NCBI RefSeq assembly: GCF_009755885.1
Contig: NZ_VYIX01000002.1
Coordinates: 1 to 64,000 of the forward strand
Direction: 5' to 3'
DNA length: 64,000 nt
DNA from: Brachyspira sp. SAP_772
Lineage (GTDB): Bacteria; Spirochaetota; Brachyspiria; Brachyspirales; Brachyspiraceae
The position numbers were made by a program, and so were the translations under genes. Below the pieces are notes generated by a model. The model worked only from the letters and a program-made list of their open reading frames with translations. It had not been told where the DNA came from and did not search any database. Below are positions 3,918 to 58,591 of the stretch, one piece after another (the first letter of the stretch is position 1; the number at the start of each line of letters is the position of its first letter).

Positions 3918-6266
3918 CTATTGTTTATACTTCCTATTCCATAATTCAAAAATGTCTGCTGTTTCTACCTCTTTTCCTGATTCTATATCTTTTATGTTTT
4001 CTTTTGCATCATTATTATATTTATCTATTTCTAAAATTCTTTCATATGTTTTTAAAGCATTATCTTTTTGATTTAATTTCATATAAAGCTCTGCAATGGA
4101 TTTTAAATAAATTATATTATCTTCTTTATCTGGCATATTTTCCTTATATATTTTTATAAGCTCTTCATAAATATGTATGCTTTTATCTGGTTTTGAAATT
4201 TTTTGATAGAAAAATGCTAAATATGATAAATCTTTCATATAATAATCTATTTTATTTTTATAATCATCATCTGCAATCGATATTTTTTTATTTTCAAAAC
4301 TTTTTATATTTTTAAGGCATACTTCTATAGCTTTATTGTATGTTTCTAATGCACTTTCTTTATCATCAATTTTCAAATATAAATCTGCCTGTATTTCAAA
4401 AAGCTCATAATCATTTTTATTTCTTGATATTTCTTTATTACACTTTTCTATTAAGTCATTATATATTTCAAATGCTTTTTCTTTATTTCCTATTTTTATA
4501 TAAATATCTGCTATTTCTTTTAAATATTCTTTTTTGTTTCTCTTATATTCTTTTATAAGTTCTCTACATTTTTTTATGGCTTTTTCATAATATAAATTTC
4601 TATTTTCTATATCATTAAGTTTATCATATAGATAAGCAATATTTTTTAATGTATCAAGTTTACTGCCTCTTATATATATGAATAGTTCATCATCAGCTAT
4701 TTTAAAATATTCTTTATATGCTTCTATAGCATTATTGTATTTTCCAAGCATTTCATAACATTCTGCTAATTCTTTATAAGATTTGCATGGTTTATTTAAA
4801 ATTTCTATAGCTTTATTATAATAATTAATAGCTTCTTCATAGTTTTCTAATTTTTTATAAATTTCAGCAATATTAATATAATAGTATGAATTTTCACTGT
4901 CAATTTTTATAGCTTTATTATAATAATTAATAGCTTCTTCATAGTTTTCTAATTTTTCATATATTTCAGCAATATTAATATAATAGTCTAAATTTCCACT
5001 GTCAATTTCTATAGCTTTATTGTAATAATCAATAGCCTCATTATAATTTTCTGCATATTCATAATTAAGGGCAATATCAATATAATAATTCAATGCATCA
5101 TCAGGATACATTTTTATAATCATTTTATATGTATCTATTGCATTTTTATAATTTTTAGCTTCTATATATGTTTCAGCTATATTTTTATAATTCTCTTTAG
5201 ATGTTTGATTATATAATTCTATAGCTTTATCATATTCTCCATATCTTTTATAAAAATCTGCAAGCATTTCTCTGCATGATGCAGCTGACTTATGATAATC
5301 CCAAATAATATCATTATATGCCTCAATTATATCATTATAAGTTTCGCTTCCTTTAAAATCCTTATCATCATATGGTATAATCATAAATGGTGCTGATACA
5401 TCTTTTTTTATACTATTTTTCAAAGTATATATAGCATCATTATTTTTACCGAGTTTTTTATATAAATCATACAATGATTTTAATGCCTTTAAACAATTAT
5501 AAAAATTATCATCTAACTCGCTTCTTATATTTATATTTAATGCCATTTTATAACTTTTCAAAGCTTCATCATACTGTCCGTTTTTTTCATAGCTTAAGCC
5601 TAAATAATGCCAATAATTAGACACTTCATAAAAATTATTAAAATAATCTATTGAATCTTTTATAGCTTTTTTAAAATTTTCTATAGCATCTTGGCTTTTT
5701 CCTAAATATAAATTTATTTTCCCAAATGTATAATAATAATATTCTTTATTGTTATAAATTGTTTCTGTATAATTTATTTCAGCTGCTTTTTTATGAAACT
5801 CTATAGCTTTATCATAATCTTTTATAACAAAGAAATGTGCTGTTCCAAGTAAATACCAATATTCAGAATCTTTATTATTTAATTCAATAGCATTTTCTAA
5901 TAATTCAATAATTTTTTTTTGTATTTTTTTATTATCATAATCTTTGTCATAATAATATGATGCTGCTAAATAGTATAAAACTTTATCTTTTTTATAATTA
6001 AGATTTAAAAGTTTTTTCAATGTTGCTATTACTTTTTTATATTCATCATCAATATATGAATCATCATACTGCACCAAAGCTAATAAAAATAATAATTCTT
6101 TATTATTAGGCTCTTTTTTTAAATGCTTATTTAATATTTCTTGAGCTTCTTTATTGTAAAGTACATCATCATCTTCGAGTTTTTCATTATTTATTCTTTT
6201 ATTAATTCTTTTATTTATTAATTCTTTTATTTCTTCTATTGTGTAATTTTTTTTATTATTTTGCAT
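3918..6266 (-). CDS. TPR-repeat protein (paralogue 2)
   Basis: This 782-residue, all-TPR protein is a close paralogue of the gene just downstream (1552-3813), and the two lie in tandem on the same strand about 100 bp apart. Both begin with the same motif (NNKKNYTIEEIKELINK versus DNKKNYTIEEIKELINK) and share the order of repeats. Here the central array has three nearly identical units (YEEAINYYNKAI with YYINIAEIYEKLEN spacers) where paralogue 1 has two. The N-terminus also contains a short repeated KRINKRINN. An aagga ribosome-binding site precedes the ATG. It is probably a cytoplasmic scaffold; the partner is unknown. The pair looks like a recent tandem duplication followed by repeat expansion. 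Confidence 0.9.
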   Translation of the reverse strand: MQNNKKNYTIEEIKELINKRINKRINNEKLEDDDVLYNKEAQEILNKHLKKEPNNKELLFLLALVQYDDSYIDDEYKKVIATLKKLLNLNYKKDKVLYYLAASYYYDKDYDNKKIQKKIIELLENAIELNNKDSEYWYLLGTAHFFVIKDYDKAIEFHKKAAEINYTETIYNNKEYYYYTFGKINLYLGKSQDAIENFKKAIKDSIDYFNNFYEVSNYWHYLGLSYEKNGQYDEALKSYKMALNINIRSELDDNFYNCLKALKSLYDLYKKLGKNNDAIYTLKNSIKKDVSAPFMIIPYDDKDFKGSETYNDIIEAYNDIIWDYHKSAASCREMLADFYKRYGEYDKAIELYNQTSKENYKNIAETYIEAKNYKNAIDTYKMIIKMYPDDALNYYIDIALNYEYAENYNEAIDYYNKAIEIDSGNLDYYINIAEIYEKLENYEEAINYYNKAIKIDSENSYYYINIAEIYKKLENYEEAINYYNKAIEILNKPCKSYKELAECYEMLGKYNNAIEAYKEYFKIADDELFIYIRGSKLDTLKNIAYLYDKLNDIENRNLYYEKAIKKCRELIKEYKRNKKEYLKEIADIYIKIGNKEKAFEIYNDLIEKCNKEISRNKNDYELFEIQADLYLKIDDKESALETYNKAIEVCLKNIKSFENKKISIADDDYKNKIDYYMKDLSYLAFFYQKISKPDKSIHIYEELIKIYKENMPDKEDNIIYLKSIAELYMKLNQKDNALKTYERILEIDKYNNDAKENIKDIESGKEVETADIFELWNRKYKQ

Positions 6267-6364
6267 TTTATTTTCCTTACAGTTTATGATATTTTATATC
6301 ATTGAACTTACAAAAAATTTCACGAAACTGAGTATATACTGAAACAATTATATTTTATCAACTT

Positions 6365-6540
6365 TTAAGATATTAGCTATAGTACTTGCACTTTTTGGTT
6401 CTTTGACGAAGTCCGCACCGCGACTGAAAGGAGTCCTTCAGGGCGACCGAAGGGAGTACCTTTAGGTGCGTAGCTGCTGGAAAAAGTTGATAGAAAATTA
6501 TTCTTTAACTATATGCGTAAATAAATATATTTCAGAAATT
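6365..6540 (+). repeat. Family A repeat, right half
   Basis: The sequence runs from tgcactttttggttcttt through accgcgactgaaaggagt and gaccgaagggagt modules to ggaaaaagttgatagaaaa. It lies between the start of TPR paralogue 2 and the stop of purE and accounts for most of the 309-bp gene-free stretch 6267-6575. The rest is AT-rich with no recognisable feature. Confidence 0.75.
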
Positions 6541-6575
6541 TTATACTTGATCCTCGCCAATATGTTACAGCTCTA

Positions 6576-7064
6576 TTAAATACCAAAATCTATTGGTTTC
6601 TCGTTATCTGAAATAAAATCTTCTTTCATCTTTTTCCTATATTCTATTAATTTATTTCTTACACTCTCATATTTCAAAGACAACATTTCAACGGCAAGCA
6701 TACCAGCATTATAAGAATTATTTATACCCACAGTAGCAACAGTGATAGGCTTTGGCATTTGCACTATAGAAAGTAAAGCGTCCATTCCATCAAGCACACT
6801 AGCACTAATTGGAACACCTATTACAGGAAGTATAGTTTTAGAAGCTATAACACCCGGTAAATGAGCAGCAAGACCAGCACCCGCAATTATCACTTCAAAG
6901 TTTTGATTTTCTATATCTTTAATAGTTTTTTCAAGATGTTCAGGCACTCTATGGGCAGATAATACAAAAGCCTTATATTCAATACCAAACTCTTTTAAAC
7001 ATAAGGCAGCATTTTTCATTTTATCAGTATCGCTTCTGCTTCCAAAAATAATAGCTACTTTCAT
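6576..7064 (-). CDS. purE: N5-carboxyaminoimidazole ribonucleotide mutase, PurE class I
   Basis: PurE acts in purine synthesis, moving the carboxyl group of N5-CAIR to give CAIR. The 162-residue length is normal for the family. Visible motifs are the substrate-phosphate loop GSRSD (residues 8-12), SAHR (36-39) with the conserved histidine, and AGAGLAAHLPG (61-71). A clear aggag ribosome-binding site precedes the ATG. No purK or other purine gene is adjacent; purL lies about 11.5 kb away on the same strand. Flanked on both sides by family A repeats, it stands as a single-gene unit here. Confidence 0.97.
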   Translation of the reverse strand: MKVAIIFGSRSDTDKMKNAALCLKEFGIEYKAFVLSAHRVPEHLEKTIKDIENQNFEVIIAGAGLAAHLPGVIASKTILPVIGVPISASVLDGMDALLSIVQMPKPITVATVGINNSYNAGMLAVEMLSLKYESVRNKLIEYRKKMKEDFISDNEKPIDFGI

Positions 7065-8600: not shown

Positions 8601-8965
8601 AGTTTTTTATCAGTGGTGTCTTTGCCCCCTGCGAAGCGTTCCCTTAGGGTACAGCCCCCCACTTCTTTTACGACTGAAAGGAGTCCTTCAGGGCGACCGA
8701 AGGAAGTGCCTGCGACTGAAAGAAGTACCTTTAGGTATGGGTGCGAAGGCGGGAAAAAGTTGATAGAAAATTATTATTTTAATATACAATGAAAATTTTT
8801 TAAGCTTGTAAAAATGTATTTTAAATTTTTTGTTTGTGGTGGCTTTCCCCATGCAAAGCGTGCCCGAAGGGTGAAAACTTTGACAAAGTCCACAAAGCGA
8901 AGGCGGGAAAAAGTTGAATAAAAAATCATGTAACAAAATATAGTTATTTCAGAATATATTATTTT
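8601..8965 (+). repeat. Family A repeat, two partial units with expanded variable modules
   Basis: The first partial unit (from agttttttatcagtgg) carries three successive variable modules (cgactgaaaggagt, cgaccgaaggaagt, cgactgaaagaagt) before gggaaaaagttgatagaaa. The second (about 8817-8930) has gcaaagcgtgcccgaagg, then gaaggcgggaaaaagttgaat. This is part of the 832-bp gene-free stretch 8486-9317. Short open frames on both strands here are only low-complexity reads through repeat modules. Confidence 0.75.
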
Positions 8966-8975
8966 AGTTTATTAG

Positions 8976-9215
8976 AAAATATTTTTTAAGTTTTTTATTT
9001 GTGGTGGCGTTGCCCCACGCCCCTACTTCTTTTACGACCGTAGGAAGTGCCTTCGGTATTGGTATAAAAGAAGCAAAAGAACTACAATTTTTTAGCTAAA
9101 AATATTTTTATTATCTTATAGTTTATAGATATTCCAAAAGATACAAAGCTATAACATTTGCACTTTTTGCAACTTTTTGCGGCGGGAAAAAGTTGATCTT
9201 TTGCTTCTTTGGTAT
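8976..9215 (+). repeat. Family A repeat, near-complete unit with terminal stem
   Basis: This unit runs from aagttttttatttgtgg through one variable module (accgtaggaagtgcc) and ataaaagaagcaaaagaac to a perfect 9-bp stem: caacttttt (9170-9178) and aaaaagttg (9187-9195) with loop gcggcggg. Together with the preceding partial units it fills most of the divergent gap between the AAA ATPase and the flavin reductase-like gene. Bases 9216-9317 show only a short AT-rich leader. Confidence 0.8.
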
Positions 9216-28360: not shown

Positions 28361-28460
28361 AAGTTTAATAAATATTTATAAAATTAAAGTTATAAAGATA
28401 TTGAAAAATATATAAATATTATGTATTATATATAAAAAATTTTCTAAGGAATAAAAAACT

Positions 28461-29399
28461 ATGAAAAGAATAATTGTAACAGGCGGAGCTGGTTTTTTAG
28501 GTTCTCATCTATGCGAAAGATTATTAAAAGAAGGAAATTATGTAATATCTGTTGATAATTTTTACACAGCATCAAAAGAAAATATTAAACATCTATTAGA
28601 CAATAAAAACTTTGAAAGCGTTAGACATGATATAACAGAGCCAATACATATAGAATGCGATGAAATATATAATTTTGCTTGTCCTGCTTCACCAATACAT
28701 TATCAAAAAAATCCTGTTGCAACTTTTAAAACCAATGTACTTGGTATAATAAATATGCTTGATTTAGCTAGAGATTGTAATGCTAGAATACTTCAAGCTT
28801 CTACTAGCGAGGTTTATGGAGACCCTTTAGAACATCCTCAAAAAGAAAGCTATTGGGGACATGTAAATCCAAATGGTGTAAGAAGCTGTTATGATGAAGG
28901 AAAAAGAAGTGCTGAAACTTTAATGATGGATTATCATAGACAATATAAAACTGATATAAAAATTATAAGAATATTTAATACATACGGTCCTAGAATGAAT
29001 GAGAATGATGGAAGAGTTGTTTCAAATTTCATTATACAAGCATTACAGAATTTAGATATTACAGTTTATGGAGACGGCAGTCAAACTAGAAGTTTTTGCT
29101 ACTGTGATGATTTAATTGATGGTGCTGTAAGAATGATGAATAGTGAAAACTTTATTGGTCCTGTTAATTTAGGTAATCCTCATGAAATGACAGTTTTGGA
29201 TTTTGCTAAAAAAATTGTAGAAATGACTAATTCAAAATCAAAAATAATTTTTAAAGAACTTCCTAAAGATGATCCTATAAAAAGACAGCCTAATATTAGT
29301 TTGGCAAAAGAAAAACTTAATTGGGAGCCTAATTATAAACTTGAAGATGGTTTGAGAAAAACAATAGAATATTTTGATAATTATTTAAGAAACAAATAA
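28461..29399 (+). CDS. UDP-glucuronic acid decarboxylase (UDP-xylose synthase-like)
   Basis: This 312-residue extended SDR has [11 protein letters not shown] (7-17), a serine/threonine-rich [10 protein letters not shown] (113-122) and the active-site YDEGK (Tyr144, Lys148), the last being a hallmark of UDP-glucuronate decarboxylases. The [10 protein letters not shown] and [17 protein letters not shown] blocks also match. The enzyme oxidises and decarboxylates UDP-glucuronate to UDP-xylose for surface polysaccharide. No UDP-glucose dehydrogenase is in the window. An aagga ribosome-binding site precedes the ATG. Confidence 0.9.
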
Positions 29400-29470
29400 T
29401 TACATATTATATTCTTGAATTTTATTGTAAAAATGGTAAAATAATAAAAAAATGTTTTGGATAAACTATT

Positions 29471-29713
29471 ATGGATTTAAATATAGAAGACTTAAAATGT
29501 CAAACCTCTATAAATTATGATAAGATTCTTTGCAATTGCAAAAACGTATCATATAGGCAAGCATATTCCGCAATAGCTGCAGATAAACTCACCACTGTAG
29601 AAAGTGTGTCTGAAAAAACTCAAGCATGTACTGGCTGCGGAGGATGCAAAGAAAAAATAGAGCATTTATTAGAATATGCCAAAAAAAATGAATATGCCCC
29701 ATTAAACTTTTAA
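29471..29713 (+). CDS. BFD-like [2Fe-2S]-binding protein
   Basis: This 80-residue protein has a C-X-C pair (Cys21, Cys23) and a C-X2-C pair (Cys53, Cys56) within ILCNCKNVSYRQAYSAI and QACTGCGGCKEKIE. That is the cysteine pattern of the bacterioferritin-associated ferredoxin/NifU-like (2Fe-2S) domain. An additional Cys59 follows. Such stand-alone units act as small electron carriers. It ends overlapping the stop of the convergent MFS gene by two bases. Confidence 0.87.
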   Translation: MDLNIEDLKCQTSINYDKILCNCKNVSYRQAYSAIAADKLTTVESVSEKTQACTGCGGCKEKIEHLLEYAKKNEYAPLNF

Positions 29714-30900
29714 GCTTTATATTTCTTATCTGCTTCTTCTATTAACTTGTCAAATTTTTCTTTAATTGAGGATGTTCTTTTTCTCTGCCACATTAAATAT
29801 ATAGCTATACTATAACATATTAAAGATATTATCATCATAAATAAAAAAGCTATAAAATATGAGAAGTTTGAAGCTAAATATCCAACTATAAAAGGGATAA
29901 CTAAAGCAGCTCCCCCCGTTAAAGCTTCATTTACAGCTACATTGGCACTATCTCTCTCTTGATCAGCCAAAGCATAATAAAGTCCAAAGAAATATCCAAA
30001 CCCACTTACAAAACCTAAAAATATAAATGATACTAAAAATACCCAAAAATTATTAGAAATTAAAAGTAAAGTTAAAGCAATAGGAGTAAGCAAACCAACA
30101 ATAGTAAATACTCTCTTTCGCTCTAATATTCTTAAATAGAATGCAGAAAAAAGTGCTCCCAAAGACATTACCCCAGATAATACCCCAACTAAAAATGTAG
30201 CACTTCCATTTGAAAGCCCAACTTCTTTTATGCCGTAATCTAAAAACATAAATCTTAATGTATGAAGCACTAAAGCACCAACAAATATAATAAGCCAACC
30301 TATATAAACTTTATATCTAGGAGCTCTCATAAAAGGCTCTTCCCATTTATGTCTTCTAGGTTTGAAATGCAAATGTCTTGATAAATAAAATAATATAAAC
30401 ATCAAAACACTCATTGCTATTACAATAAAAAATCCAATGCTAGAATTAAAATTATAAACAAATCCTGTAACTATAGGTCCAACAGATAACCCTAAAGTCC
30501 AAGAAAATATAAAAAGCCCGCTGCTTATTCTCACAGGCAAATCTTTTGATACACTATCAAGTAATGATTGAAAACATACAAAAAATATAGTTGTATTTGC
30601 TCCATACAAAAAAGAATATAGAAGAGATAATTCATTGTTTAAATATATTATACAAAATATACTCAGTATAGCCTGTATACAAGATTGAATATATAATAAC
30701 CTAGGATATATTCTCTTTGGTATTTTAAACTTTGAAAAAGTGCTTGCCGACATCATCATACCCATACCATAAAATACAGCCAAAAGAGAAATAAAAAATG
30801 CATTAGCTCCCATTTCTGATGAGTTAATAACTAAAACTGTTGAAAATATACTGGAACATAAATAAACCAAAAAAGGCATTGAATAAACCAATAATATCAT
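29710..30900 (-). CDS. MFS-family transporter
   Basis: This 396-residue protein has twelve predicted hydrophobic helices and the twofold layout of major facilitator proteins: two six-helix halves separated by a basic loop (RHLHFKPRRHKWEEPFMR, about 170-188). The acidic/basic loop between helices 2 and 3 is only a loose match to the usual GX3DRXGRR motif. The C-terminus is charged and cytoplasmic. It is probably a drug or metabolite exporter; substrate unknown. A gaggt ribosome-binding site precedes the ATG. It is convergent with and overlaps the BFD-like gene by two bases. Confidence 0.88.
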   Translation of the reverse strand: MILLVYSMPFLVYLCSSIFSTVLVINSSEMGANAFFISLLAVFYGMGMMMSASTFSKFKIPKRIYPRLLYIQSCIQAILSIFCIIYLNNELSLLYSFLYGANTTIFFVCFQSLLDSVSKDLPVRISSGLFIFSWTLGLSVGPIVTGFVYNFNSSIGFFIVIAMSVLMFILFYLSRHLHFKPRRHKWEEPFMRAPRYKVYIGWLIIFVGALVLHTLRFMFLDYGIKEVGLSNGSATFLVGVLSGVMSLGALFSAFYLRILERKRVFTIVGLLTPIALTLLLISNNFWVFLVSFIFLGFVSGFGYFFGLYYALADQERDSANVAVNEALTGGAALVIPFIVGYLASNFSYFIAFLFMMIISLICYSIAIYLMWQRKRTSSIKEKFDKLIEEADKKYKA

Positions 30901-31028
30901 TCTATTTTTACCTCAAAAAAATAATATACAACAAAATAATATAACAATATATAAATTATTTTTAAAAAATATATAGCAAATTAATATTTTTAGTTAATAA
31001 TATGAAAAAATTTTATTAATATAAAAAT

Positions 31029-31066
31029 AAAGAGCTTAAACTATTTAATAATAGTAAAAGCCCTTT
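31029..31066 (-). terminator. Imperfect terminator stem downstream of gatA
   Basis: A long imperfect inverted repeat (aaagagcttaaactatt and aatagtaaaagcccttt) is followed on the minus strand by T-rich sequence, 20 bp past the gatA stop. Confidence 0.55.
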
Positions 31067-31085
31067 ATATTGTATAAAATTTTAA

Positions 31086-32534
31086 TTATTTGTAATTTAA
31101 TTCATGAGTATAAGCCATTTTAAACATAGAAGCCTCATCAAACTGCTTAGCTATAAACTGTATACCTATAGGCATATTATTTTTATCTACTCCGCAAGGC
31201 ACACTCATTGCAGGAAGACCTACTAAGTTAATATTAGAAGCATAACTGTCTGCCAAGAAACCTAAAGCACTGTCTGTTTGATCTCTTGTACCTAAAAGAC
31301 CAGCAGTGATAGGAGAAGTTGGAGATATTATGATATCAACATTTTTAAATGCATTATCAAAATCCATTTGCATTAACTTTCTTACTTTTAGAGCATGTTG
31401 ATAATGACTGTAGAAGAATTTTTTACCAGTCATTAAAGTACCAAATAATATTCTAGCTCTAGTTTCAAAAGCAAGACCAGCACTTCTTGAAGCATAATAA
31501 TATTCATCTAAATTAAAATCGCCTTTAGGGTGATAACCATATCTTATACCGTCATATCTGCCCATATTAGAAGCAACCTCAACCGCCATAACAGCAGTAT
31601 AAACTCTTGAACCATATTTAGCGTTAGGCAAAGATATATCCACTATTTCAGCACCCTGAGCCTTAAGATTATCTATAGCCTTCATTACATTTTCTCTCAC
31701 TTCATTATTTAATAAATCAGTTTCATAATACTCTTTAGCAAGCCCAATTCTCATGCCCTTAACATTTCCATCTAATAAAGAATTATAATCAGGCACAGGT
31801 ATGTTTAAAGTTGTGGATTCTTTAGGGTCAAAACCAGCAATAATTTTAGTCATTAAAGCAGCATCTTTAACGTCTTTTGCGAGAGGTCCCACTTGGTCTA
31901 AACTGCTAGCCATAGCAATACATCCAAGTCTAGGCACTCTTCCATAAGTAGGCTTAACCCCAACTATACCGCAGAAAGAAGCAGGCTGTCTTATAGAACC
32001 GCCAGTATCACTTCCCAAAGCACCAAAAGCAAAATTAGCAGCAACCGCAGCAGCAGAACCGCCTGAAGAACCGCCCGGAACATGAGCTCTATTAACAGGA
32101 TTTCTAGTTATTCCATAATTAGAAGTTTCTGTAGTACCGCCCATTGCAAACTCATCCATATTAGTTCTTCCAATTATAATAGCACCGTTGTCTATTAATC
32201 TTTGAACTGTAGGTGCAGTGTATGGAGCTTTATAGCCTTCAAGCATTTTTGAAGAAGCTGTCATTAAATGGTCTTTATAACATAAATTGTCTTTAATAGC
32301 CAAAGGAACTCCAAGAAGAGGCAAATCCTCCCCTTTGTTAATTCTCTCTTGTGCTTTTTTAGCTTGCTCTATAGCTTCATCTTTAAAAATTTCTAAATAA
32401 GCATATATTTTATCTTCTCTTTTATCATCTTCTTCTATTTTCTTTATAATAGATTCTGTTAGACTAACTGCATCTATTTCTTTATTCTTTAATTTCTCTC
32501 TAATTTGAATTATACTCAATTCGTTTAAGTCCAT
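31086..32534 (-). CDS. gatA: Glu-tRNA(Gln)/Asp-tRNA(Asn) amidotransferase subunit A
   Basis: The 482-residue amidase subunit of GatCAB turns misacylated Glu-tRNA(Gln) into Gln-tRNA(Gln) using ammonia from glutamine. The amidase triad is visible as Lys81 (GVPLAIKDN), Ser156 in the GGSSGGS loop, and Ser180 (GSDTGGS). The length is normal. An agagg ribosome-binding site precedes the ATG. gatB and gatC are not in this window, so the subunits are encoded apart. Confidence 0.96.
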   Translation of the reverse strand: MDLNELSIIQIREKLKNKEIDAVSLTESIIKKIEEDDKREDKIYAYLEIFKDEAIEQAKKAQERINKGEDLPLLGVPLAIKDNLCYKDHLMTASSKMLEGYKAPYTAPTVQRLIDNGAIIIGRTNMDEFAMGGTTETSNYGITRNPVNRAHVPGGSSGGSAAAVAANFAFGALGSDTGGSIRQPASFCGIVGVKPTYGRVPRLGCIAMASSLDQVGPLAKDVKDAALMTKIIAGFDPKESTTLNIPVPDYNSLLDGNVKGMRIGLAKEYYETDLLNNEVRENVMKAIDNLKAQGAEIVDISLPNAKYGSRVYTAVMAVEVASNMGRYDGIRYGYHPKGDFNLDEYYYASRSAGLAFETRARILFGTLMTGKKFFYSHYQHALKVRKLMQMDFDNAFKNVDIIISPTSPITAGLLGTRDQTDSALGFLADSYASNINLVGLPAMSVPCGVDKNNMPIGIQFIAKQFDEASMFKMAYTHELNYK

Positions 32535-32600
32535 TGTAGGAAACCTCTTAAATAAATAATAAATTTTGAAATTTATTATATCATATATATATTTTTTTGC

Positions 32601-33672: not shown

Positions 33673-34710
33673 CTATTTTTTTAAATCTTTTAAATTTAAT
33701 GCTGTAAAGGATTTTTTATCAATTTTTAATTTTTTTCCAATAACTTTATCATAATCTTTGGCAGATATTCCCACACATGGCCTTAAAGTTACTAAATCTT
33801 TTTCTGTTATCATCTCATTTTTAAGCATGCTGTGGTTAAGATATATACCCCTCTTAGCATAAACAAGCTCTTTTTTCTCCTGCTTACTCATTTTTTTCTC
33901 AGTCTTTAAAGCATCATTTCCGCCAAGCATTTTATTAGTGTCTTTTAATTTAGAAATCATCTCTTTCATAGAATTGGTATCTAAACTTATTATATGATCC
34001 CCAGATTTTTTTTCTGGTGTGATTGTGAAATGTTTTTCTATAATCTTAGCTCCGAGACTATACGCTATAATAGGAGCATCTATTCCTATAGTATGGTCAG
34101 AATAGCCTATAATATTTTTTTTGAAAAGCTTATTCATAACAGTTATTCTATTTAATCTAGCATTTTCTAAAGGAGTAGGATATTCCACAGAACAATGAAG
34201 CAAAGCTACCTCATTATTTTTTAAAATGTTTAATGCATTTTTTATATCTTTATTTGCAGCTAAACCAGTAGAAAGTATAACAGGTTTTTTAGTAGAGGCA
34301 ACTTTTCTTAAAAGCGGAATATTATCTATATCACAAGAAGCTATCTTGTATATAGGCACATATTTATCCATATCATCAACAGCTTCAGGATAAAATGGAG
34401 TACTCATTAAAATAATTTTGTTTTTCTTAGCCTCTTTATATAGAGTTTCATACCACTCTTTTTTTAATACTATATCATCAACATTATCTAATGCATTTTC
34501 TGGTATTTTAAGTATTTTAGTATATTCTTTATGAGCAAATAGAGTTTTTGAAGTAAAGCTTTGAAACTTCACAGCATGAGCTCCTGCTTTAGAAGCTTCT
34601 CTAATTAGTTTAACAGCATCCTCTATAGAGCCTTCATGATTAGAGCCTGATTCTGCAATTACAAAAAAATTATTTTTTTTAATTAAGTCTTTTAATTTAA
34701 GATTTGCCAT
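33673..34710 (-). CDS. neuB: N-acetylneuraminate (sialic acid) synthase, NeuB family
   Basis: This 345-residue enzyme condenses a six-carbon amino sugar with phosphoenolpyruvate to make a nonulosonic acid. NeuB landmarks are IAESGSNHEGS near residue 20, AVKFQS, STPF, STGLA, LLHCSVEYPTP, GYSDHTIG and EKHFT. The C-terminal part (about 285-345) is a SAF/antifreeze-like domain (RGIYLNHSMLKNEMITEKDL). Whether the product is neuraminic, legionaminic or pseudaminic acid cannot be decided. The ribosome-binding site is weak (ggga). A tataat box (34731-34736) lies upstream, and a hexanucleotide microsatellite lies 45 bp further up. Confidence 0.92.
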   Translation of the reverse strand: MANLKLKDLIKKNNFFVIAESGSNHEGSIEDAVKLIREASKAGAHAVKFQSFTSKTLFAHKEYTKILKIPENALDNVDDIVLKKEWYETLYKEAKKNKIILMSTPFYPEAVDDMDKYVPIYKIASCDIDNIPLLRKVASTKKPVILSTGLAANKDIKNALNILKNNEVALLHCSVEYPTPLENARLNRITVMNKLFKKNIIGYSDHTIGIDAPIIAYSLGAKIIEKHFTITPEKKSGDHIISLDTNSMKEMISKLKDTNKMLGGNDALKTEKKMSKQEKKELVYAKRGIYLNHSMLKNEMITEKDLVTLRPCVGISAKDYDKVIGKKLKIDKKSFTALNLKDLKK

Positions 34711-34730: not shown

Positions 34731-34736
34731 ATTATA
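34731..34736 (-). promoter_or_regulatory. Putative -10 box upstream of neuB
   Basis: TATAAT is read on the minus strand 21 bp before the neuB ATG. No good -35 hexamer lies at the right spacing, so the promoter may be weak or depend on an activator or on the upstream microsatellite. Confidence 0.45.
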
Positions 34737-34780
34737 GATTAATTATCGAAAAGAAGGGTAGATTTATTAATATGAAAAAA

Positions 34781-34879
34781 GTGTTTGTGTTTGTGTTTGT
34801 GTTTGTGTTTGTGTTTGTGTTTGTGTTTGTGTTTGTGTTTGTGTTTGTGTTTGTGTTTGTGTTTGTGTTTGTGTTTGTG
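34781..34879. repeat. Hexanucleotide microsatellite (gtgttt)n, about 16.5 units
   Basis: An uninterrupted 99-bp run of the 6-bp unit lies between the 3' end of tRNA-Thr and the neuB promoter region. Pure runs of this length are prone to slipped-strand changes in unit number. Confidence 0.98.
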
Positions 34880-34896
34880 GGTTGATAAAAAAGATG

Positions 34897-34969
34897 AGCT
34901 GGTGATGGGACTTGAACCCGCAACCGGCTGATTACAAATCAGCTGCTCTGCCAATTGAGCTACACCAGC
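34897..34969 (-). tRNA. tRNA-Thr (anticodon UGU)
   Basis: On the minus strand a cloverleaf folds. The acceptor is gctggtg/caccagc, the D arm gctc...gagc, the anticodon stem gctga/tcagc with loop tttgtaa giving anticodon UGU, and the T loop ttcaagt. The T stem (gcggg/cccat) has one C-A mismatch and one G-U pair. The discriminator would be U and CCA is not encoded. Confidence 0.93.
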
Positions 34970-34983
34970 GAAATGATTTCACC

Positions 34984-35011
34984 ATTATACTATATAATAA
35001 AAAAAATGCAA
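34984..35011 (-). promoter_or_regulatory. Promoter of tRNA-Thr
   Basis: On the minus strand TTGCAT (35011-35006) and TATAAT (34989-34984) are separated by 16 bp and lie directly upstream of the tRNA. Confidence 0.75.
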
Positions 35012-56868: not shown

Positions 56869-57150
56869 TTTTGCACTTTTTGCAACTTTTTGCGGCGGGA
56901 AAAAGTTGAATAAAAAACCATATAACAAAATATAGTTATTTTAGAATATATTGAAAATTTTTAACTTTTTTATTTTTATTATTTGCAGGGCTTTGCCCCC
57001 CTGCGAAGCGTGCCCGTAGGGTAGCACCCCAGTTCTTTTACGACCGAAGGAAGTGCCTGCGACTGAAAGAAGTACCTTTAGGTATGGTATTGGTATAAAA
57101 GAAGCAAAAGAACTGCATTTTTATGGAATATAGTCATAAACATATGGTAT
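56869..57150 (+). repeat. Family A repeat, isolated right-hand copy
   Basis: The terminal stem caacttttt (56883-56891)/aaaaagttg (56900-56908) is followed head-to-tail by a left half with gggctttgcccc, gcgaagcgtgcccgtagg, two variable modules and ataaaagaagcaaaagaactgc. It accounts for most of the 529-bp gap 56722-57250 between asd and the M28 gene, more than 40 kb from the other A copies but in the same orientation. Confidence 0.8.
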
Positions 57151-58435: not shown

Positions 58436-58517
58436 ATTATTTTTTATTATTTTTTATTATTTTTTATTATTTTTTATTATTTTTTATTATTTTTTATTAT
58501 TTTTTATTATTTTTTTA
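58436..58517. repeat. Decanucleotide microsatellite (tttttattat)n
   Basis: Seven exact 10-bp units (58441-58510) plus partial ends. The run starts 19 bp upstream of the asd -35 hexamer, in the position of an UP element. Confidence 0.95.
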
Positions 58518-58591
58518 TTGTTATTTTAAAACTCATTTATAGAGCACAAACAAAAATGTAAATATAAAACAATGATAATAAAATTAATAAA

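Follow-up and report, generated by a model that had tools for sequence, protein, structure and literature searches.

A lineage-private hexanucleotide array upstream of neuB in Brachyspira: a plausible tuning site rather than a demonstrated switch

Introduction

Can a long, perfect microsatellite just upstream of a nonulosonate synthase gene vary the expression of that gene? The question is raised by a locus in a Brachyspira genome (G000; 3.04 Mb, 401 contigs) in which a hexanucleotide array separates a tRNA gene from neuB. The stretch analyzed here, called the window, comprises 64,000 nucleotides at the start of contig C2 (1,031,431 bp) of that genome. An earlier note on this DNA had proposed that gain or loss of repeat units gives phase-variable sialic acid synthesis.

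Tandem repeats serve as variable typing (MLVA) loci in Brachyspira pilosicoli (Neo et al. 2013, as cited in the part of PMC8116685 available to us). Searches of the open-access literature yielded no report of repeat-driven phase variation in Brachyspira and no description of a set of long arrays and leader open reading frames (ORFs) such as that reported below. In the accessible parts of two papers on the genus, "phase variation" is applied generally to Vsp proteins (PMC5415613) or occurs only in the title of a reference (PMC4267127).

Results

The array and its surroundings

The locus comprises the following features (window coordinates).

33673..34710, minus strand: neuB, nonulosonate synthase family (PF03102 and SAF domain; 345 aa, intact)
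34781..34879, no strand assigned: (GTGTTT)16.5 microsatellite, 99 bp, 100% matches by TRF
34896..34969, minus strand: tRNA-Thr (anticodon TGT), found upstream of neuB in 25/25 Brachyspira loci; placed at 34897-34969 by Rfam
34984..34989, minus strand: TATAAT of a putative tRNA-Thr promoter, with a degenerate TTGCAT at 35006-35011, as read from the sequence

The array is real, as first described: 16.5 perfect GTGTTT units over 99 bp were detected by TRF and are evident in the sequence. On the neuB strand the unit reads AAACAC, and the order is tRNA-Thr(TGT) (34969-34896), 16 bp, the array, 70 bp and neuB (34710-33673); no ATG-led ORF on that strand enters the array. The adjacency to the tRNA gene thus stands, with a gap of 16 bp instead of the claimed 17, and the TATAAT that the earlier note had taken as the -10 box lies 44 bp, not 45, from the array. 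In three simulated copies of the 1.03-Mb contig (order-2 Markov), no perfect array of at least 22 bp arose; chance or artefact was rejected on this ground as the origin of the array, whose length is below the usual read length. An insertion element or a recombination hotspot at the tRNA gene was also rejected, as the array is accompanied by no long direct or inverted repeats. The tRNA was the sole family matched in an Rfam scan of the locus, and a search for plasmid relatives of the locus returned none.

An effect of the array on processing of the tRNA trailer, another early suggestion, appears unlikely, because a mature 3' end is all that the tRNA requires and the 16-bp gap includes a T-run, a feature that follows tRNA-Thr in most of the 25 loci. 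In the deep-branching locus L024 (genome G010), what looks by eye like a terminator hairpin with a T-run lies some 20 bp ahead of the start of neuB, without the FliA-like element described below.

The array is confined to one of 26 Brachyspira genomes

Conservation was assessed with one genome per Brachyspira species. The first search recovered neuB from each of its 41 genomes. ARAGORN placed tRNA-Thr upstream of it at every one of the 25 Brachyspira loci (G000 and 24 others); two loci belonging to other families showed no tRNA-Thr at this place. The repeat behaved differently from its flanks: (GTGTTT)3 occurs in none of the 25 other Brachyspira genomes and at a single place in G000, this locus, and no perfect array of at least 24 bp (units of 2 to 12) was detected in the 29 other neuB loci fetched. 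Two two-unit GTGTTT matches elsewhere in genome G042 look like chance. Since neuB sits behind a short spacer in the relatives, neither the array nor any switching that it might bring is a conserved feature of neuB.

The nearest named relative of G000 is B. pilosicoli PC5538III-hc (L045), whose NeuB is 97% identical, followed by T010 (L046) at 95%. DNA identity to members of the B. pilosicoli complex is about 89-95% around the locus, which makes G000 look like a separate genomospecies within it. Both G000 and L045 contain TTTTTTCATATTAATAAATC; in L045 the spacer from the tRNA to TTTTTTCATATTAATAAATC is a short unique stretch. Taken from these comparisons, the best explanation is that, in a single B. 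pilosicoli-like Brachyspira, a young and lineage-specific array expanded in the spacer that separates the neuB promoter from tRNA-Thr, where it is probably hypermutable. Downstream of neuB, gene order differs between window positions 28378-32558 and L045 positions 5099-7035, as if a segment had been inverted or moved.

A conserved element downstream of the array, proposed as a FliA-type promoter

Three elements between the array and neuB come into question for the promoter.

34731..34736, minus strand: TATAAT, the -10 box of the earlier note, not kept in close relatives
34742..34750, minus strand: TTCGATAAT, proposed FliA-type -10 of neuB, invariant in 22/25 Brachyspira loci
34766..34769, minus strand: TAAT, proposed -35, 15 bp from TTCGATAAT and 11 bp from the array

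The TATAAT assignment fails on conservation, and the element that is conserved is TTCGATAAT. It is missing from three deep-branching loci (L008, L024 and L028), which have shorter spacers. Elsewhere it forms nine invariant columns in an otherwise variable stretch, making a promoter of some kind at this position more certain than its assignment to a particular sigma factor. When the 22 loci are aligned on TTCGATAAT, 21 share the A at -18, and TAAT or TAAA predominates at bases -19 to -16, i.e., 15 bp from TTCGATAA. Sigma-28 promoters have the layout TAAA-N15-GCCGATAA. Set against this consensus, TAAT-N15-TTCGATAAT matches in CGATAA and in spacing; CC is absent, and TC precedes GATAA. The same bases also fit a weak sigma-70 promoter, TTAATA-17-GATAAT (9 of 12).

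Flagellin loci of the same genus provided a comparison. After four loci shorter than full length had been left out of 27 oriented ones, TTAATAATTAA-N9-AACCGATAAT was found upstream of MVINNNISAINAQRTLKFRQ-type flagellin in 6 of the 23 that remained; a seventh locus (L171) carries CCGATAAT, and the other 16 have no such promoter. The neuB element TTCGATAAT resembles this flagellin promoter, and FliA scored above cut-off in all 11 genomes searched, G000 included. A further parallel is PflaB2 of Treponema denticola, mapped with a -10 of CCGATAA and a -35 of TTAA in the part of PMC9481697 on which we rely: both promoters have a CGATAA core and a TAA-type -35 and belong to spirochaetes with a FliA gene, whereas PflaB2 has CCGATAA where neuB has TTCGATAAT, and the start is mapped for PflaB2 and inferred for Brachyspira neuB.

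Genome-scale searches gave a mixed result. A loose sigma-28 pattern has 13 sites between genes of C2, against 9.7 +/- 2.8 expected, and is not enriched. Downstream genes were found for eight of these sites and include cheX, a rod-binding (FlgJ-like) gene, flgN and neuB, the first three having been singled out from the list post hoc. A strict pattern is enriched between genes of C2 (3 sites versus 0.4 expected). A matrix built from the flagellin promoters proved unspecific as a genome scan, doing no better than simulations, and was rejected for this use; neuB was not among the 30 matches listed. Together, the motif comparisons lead us to think, with some confidence, that neuB is transcribed by FliA (sigma-28) RNA polymerase from TAAT-N15-TTCGATAAT.

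NeuB and its likely role

The NeuB domain PF03102 scores 240.4 bits in the encoded protein, against a cut-off of 22.1. Scores fell below the curated cut-offs for both N-acetylneuraminate synthase (TIGR03569, 284.6 versus 399.65) and pseudaminate synthase (TIGR03586, 259.6 versus 340.25). Sialic acid synthesis, as at first suggested, does not follow from these scores, and the promoter and gene content point instead to flagella.

All 26 Brachyspira genomes encode PF01973 proteins, mostly three each, of a family whose present Pfam name is MptE-like and which we take to include the Maf flagellin glycosyltransferases. The NCBIfam scan covered two of the three in G000, the third being encoded in C2: one matches PseD (flagellin modification; 3.1e-29, below cut-off), and the other, whose gene adjoins a response-regulator gene, has no NCBIfam match. 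Cytidylyltransferases likewise occur in 26/26 genomes. The CMP-nonulosonate step is not established by them, because the smaller enzyme scores best against KDO cytidylyltransferase models, below cut-off. No sigma-28 pattern was found within 200 bp upstream of the two PF01973 (Maf-like) genes and the cytidylyltransferase gene on contig C1. Judging from gene content and promoter type, the nonulosonic acid is likely used on flagellin.

Slippage in homopolymers inside neuB was considered for the window and rejected, as the gene is open. In L004 (genome G007), neuB is frameshifted near codon 16 at a T-rich run, through a real change or a sequencing error, and neighbors carry intact copies of the gene; window neuB has A8 and T7 runs at the corresponding region.

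How the array could act on neuB

The earlier note's case for repeat-driven control of neuB holds in part: a long perfect array does lie directly upstream of the promoter, and nadA of Neisseria meningitidis offers a precedent, but the array is absent from 25 relatives. According to the part of PMC2791445 consulted, nadA transcript levels change quasi-periodically with the number of repeats in a TAAA tract at a similar place. Both repeats are perfect, short in unit and upstream of a core promoter, where they change spacing and not frame, and the near edge of the neuB array would lie at about the same distance as that of the tract (-46, inferred). The neuB array differs from the tract described in that source in its unit of 6 rather than 4 and its 99 bp, has no known operators or IHF site, is not conserved in relatives and lies upstream of a proposed promoter of the FliA type. 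At most, it may work like nadA.

Our preferred reading, advanced tentatively, is that a young, slippage-prone array in the spacer modestly tunes FliA-driven neuB and is no dedicated on/off switch. The number of units would change by slipped-strand mispairing. The array would span about -46 to -144 of the FliA promoter, its near edge some 46 bp from the expected start. Gain or loss of units cannot shift any neuB reading frame and could alter only distance and helical face: one 6-bp unit would turn the helix by about 206 degrees, and two would almost restore the face. Alternatively, unit number might alter how well neuB is insulated from tRNA-Thr transcription. The likeliest outcome would be modest tuning of neuB transcription and, through it, of a nonulosonic acid probably placed on flagellin. 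Because a tRNA gene lies upstream of the array and no activator site is known there, a modest effect or none is to be expected; tuning is itself a guess, a true on/off switch is the less likely outcome, and on/off phase variation of neuB is unproven. For now the array is one more promoter-side microsatellite with a putative effect, a plausible tuning site and not a demonstrated switch. The probable flagellar promoter also means that loss or tuning of NeuB should be sought in flagellin sugar and motility, not in surface sialic acid.

It is quite possible that the array is neutral, varying in length while neuB stays unaffected because the whole core promoter lies downstream. Its restriction to 1 of 26 genomes, the position of the conserved TTCGATAAT element wholly outside it, the fact that neuB manages elsewhere without it and the existence in G000 of other arrays outside leader ORFs are all in keeping with neutrality. 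The array nevertheless ends 11 bp from the proposed -35, in the region where, by the part of PMC2791445 cited, the polymerase alpha subunits contact DNA at nadA, and many other long Brachyspira arrays sit in gene leaders, which speaks for some effect. The opposite view, that of the earlier note, is a selected contingency locus that phase-varies neuB in the manner of nadA. We hold this to be unlikely: the length, perfection and promoter-proximal position of the array would suit it, as would a host-associated genus with many simple sequence repeat (SSR) loci and the frequency with which sugar and envelope genes are SSR targets, but six-base units shift no frame, NeuB may serve periplasmic flagella, which weakens the argument from immune evasion, and the repeat is not conserved at neuB, whereas arrays of AACCA and of AACTCTA are each shared by several species at one gene. 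A bolder elaboration, which we regard as distinctly unlikely, would have the array recently recruited to the SSR set of the genus, with stochastic FliA-driven neuB expression making flagellin glycosylation and motility vary between sister cells. Odd and even unit numbers would then alternate in effect, since a single 6-bp unit would bring upstream DNA to nearly the opposite helical face, and AAAC, ATCGC and AACCA leader ORFs, whose frame would set translational coupling to envelope genes, would add a second and larger layer.

Two further readings place the array in RNA. The tRNA-Thr promoter might partly transcribe neuB by read-through, the array then forming an unstructured, G-free leader RNA of 99 nt that sets Rho termination or decay. 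tRNA-Thr and neuB are on the same strand in conserved order, only about 34 bp separate them in deep-branching L008, no terminator was called between them at the window locus, and other Brachyspira arrays lie just after strong promoters. The array RNA folds no better than shuffled sequences (z 0.05), a value that agrees with an unstructured leader and led us to reject a role for leader RNA structure. A conserved promoter-like element between array and neuB in 22/25 loci and the T-run after the tRNA in most loci argue in the other direction, and we consider read-through very improbable. Still harder to credit is that the array forms the body of a leader ORF on the opposite strand:

34772..34885, plus strand: ORF MKK(VF)16VG through the array, a mechanical ORF, probably not a gene

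Its ATG 9 bp before the array recalls the leader ORFs described below, to which it would be kin, and a promoter-like TTGCCA-18-TATATT stands upstream. Set against this, an in-frame ATG is found within 12 nt at about 11% of random positions upstream of genes, some five promoter matches of this quality would be expected over the scanned stretch, units of six bases preserve the frame and so afford no switch, and only tRNA-Thr, in antisense, follows downstream.

The neuB array also stands apart from the GCAGA leader-peptide repeats of pil1 in Streptococcus gallolyticus, as far as these are described in the available part of PMC3894217. No ORF on the sense strand contains it, and its unit is a multiple of three; these two properties exclude both the pil1 mechanism and the leader-ORF class for it.

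Long arrays and leader ORFs across the genus

The neuB array led us to a large set of arrays, many of them inside leader ORFs that precede lipoprotein, acyltransferase or sugar genes, and we regard this genus-wide setting as the most interesting part of the analysis. Contig C2 has 13 perfect arrays of at least 22 bp, 11 of them 50-147 bp long. The simulated contigs had none of this length, which fits an unstable genomic setting for the neuB array. The units of those of at least 50 bp are GTGTTT, ATTATTTTTT, AACTCTA, ATCGC (two arrays), AAAC (three), AACCA, TATTAATTTTT and TAGTG/CACTA. No perfect array was found in 220 kb of genome G007. Among the 26 Brachyspira genomes, (ATCGC)4 occurs in 19, (AAAC)6 in 17, (AACTCTA)3 in 10, (AACCA)4 in 9 and the GTGTTT array in one. 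The leader arrays of C2, which fall in loci L068, L060, L142, L139 and L145, are as follows (contig coordinates).

C2 426599-426735, 438258-438342, 442010-442073 and 269459-269556: leader arrays with units among AAAC, ATCGC, AACCA and CACTA
C2 914371-914502, 860547-860618 and 965300-965363: further leader arrays with units from the same set

Leaders were analyzed in a sample of 36 AAAC, ATCGC, AACCA or CACTA arrays of at least five units, made up of the best-placed matches per genome and the C2 arrays; at least four arrays (L079, L081, L085 and L101) had been excluded because of contig ends or N. All 36 arrays are entered by an ATG-led ORF whose start lies 2-34 nt ahead of them, and in 29/36 this start is within 12 nt, compared with 24% and 11% for the same two criteria at 1870 random control points upstream of genes. 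In some AAAC loci, L070, L074 and L082 among them, two of the frames stay open until a stop located at the next gene's start codon, and the third closes within about 35 nt. The genes that follow leaders, named by eye from their N-termini, encode lipoproteins, an MBOAT-like protein, a sugar epimerase and a glycosyltransferase.

Like the pil1 repeats (PMC3894217, in the part cited), these arrays lie in a short ORF before an envelope gene. TTGACA/TATAAT pairs precede three of the four C2 leaders scanned with 12, 11 and 12 of 12 matches, and the fourth has a 10-of-12 pair. In the same four leaders, of the seven in the contig, no terminator was called, which sets them apart from pil1; a hairpin suspected by eye near the CACTA array was not called either. 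Attenuation of the pil1 type was rejected for the leader arrays on this ground, and translational coupling is the better guess: expression of the next gene would probably depend on the frame of the leader, as the ORF layouts suggest. If the leader arrays do switch, the Brachyspira envelope would be phase variable, with a bearing on colonisation and typing.

Two units exemplify arrays kept at one gene. AACCA precedes the same MLFNSTEFMIFFP gene in seven of nine loci, G000 included, with 8.6, 10.8, 11.4, 12.6, 14.4 and 16.6 units in the six arrays that do not touch a contig end. The flank is the same in L266 (18.8 units), where the gene is cut off, and the L271 array precedes another gene. AACTCTA precedes one gene in L258, L259, L261 and L262, with 16.7-19.0 units in a leader without an ATG; L260 and L263 end too soon for placement. 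In G000 the AACTCTA array (C2 200050-200196, 21 units) stands before a gene whose start is similar by eye to that of the L258 group. The two units together give what appears to be the picture of conserved repeat loci, from which the neuB array differs in its private unit, its private place and its frame-neutral unit length.

Elsewhere in C2, positions 815589-816869 (L137 11589-12869) encode a protein in which an LpxC domain is fused to a response-regulator receiver domain. The window holds a second long array at 58436-58528, eight perfect copies of ATTATTTTTT (9.1 by TRF), between genes that by eye resemble those for D-aminopeptidase and aspartate-semialdehyde dehydrogenase. Short degenerate GCGACCGAAAGAAGTACCT and TTTGCAACTT repeats are present in the window at 6420-6466, 8693-8730, 57041-57077, 9157-9180 and 56869-56893.
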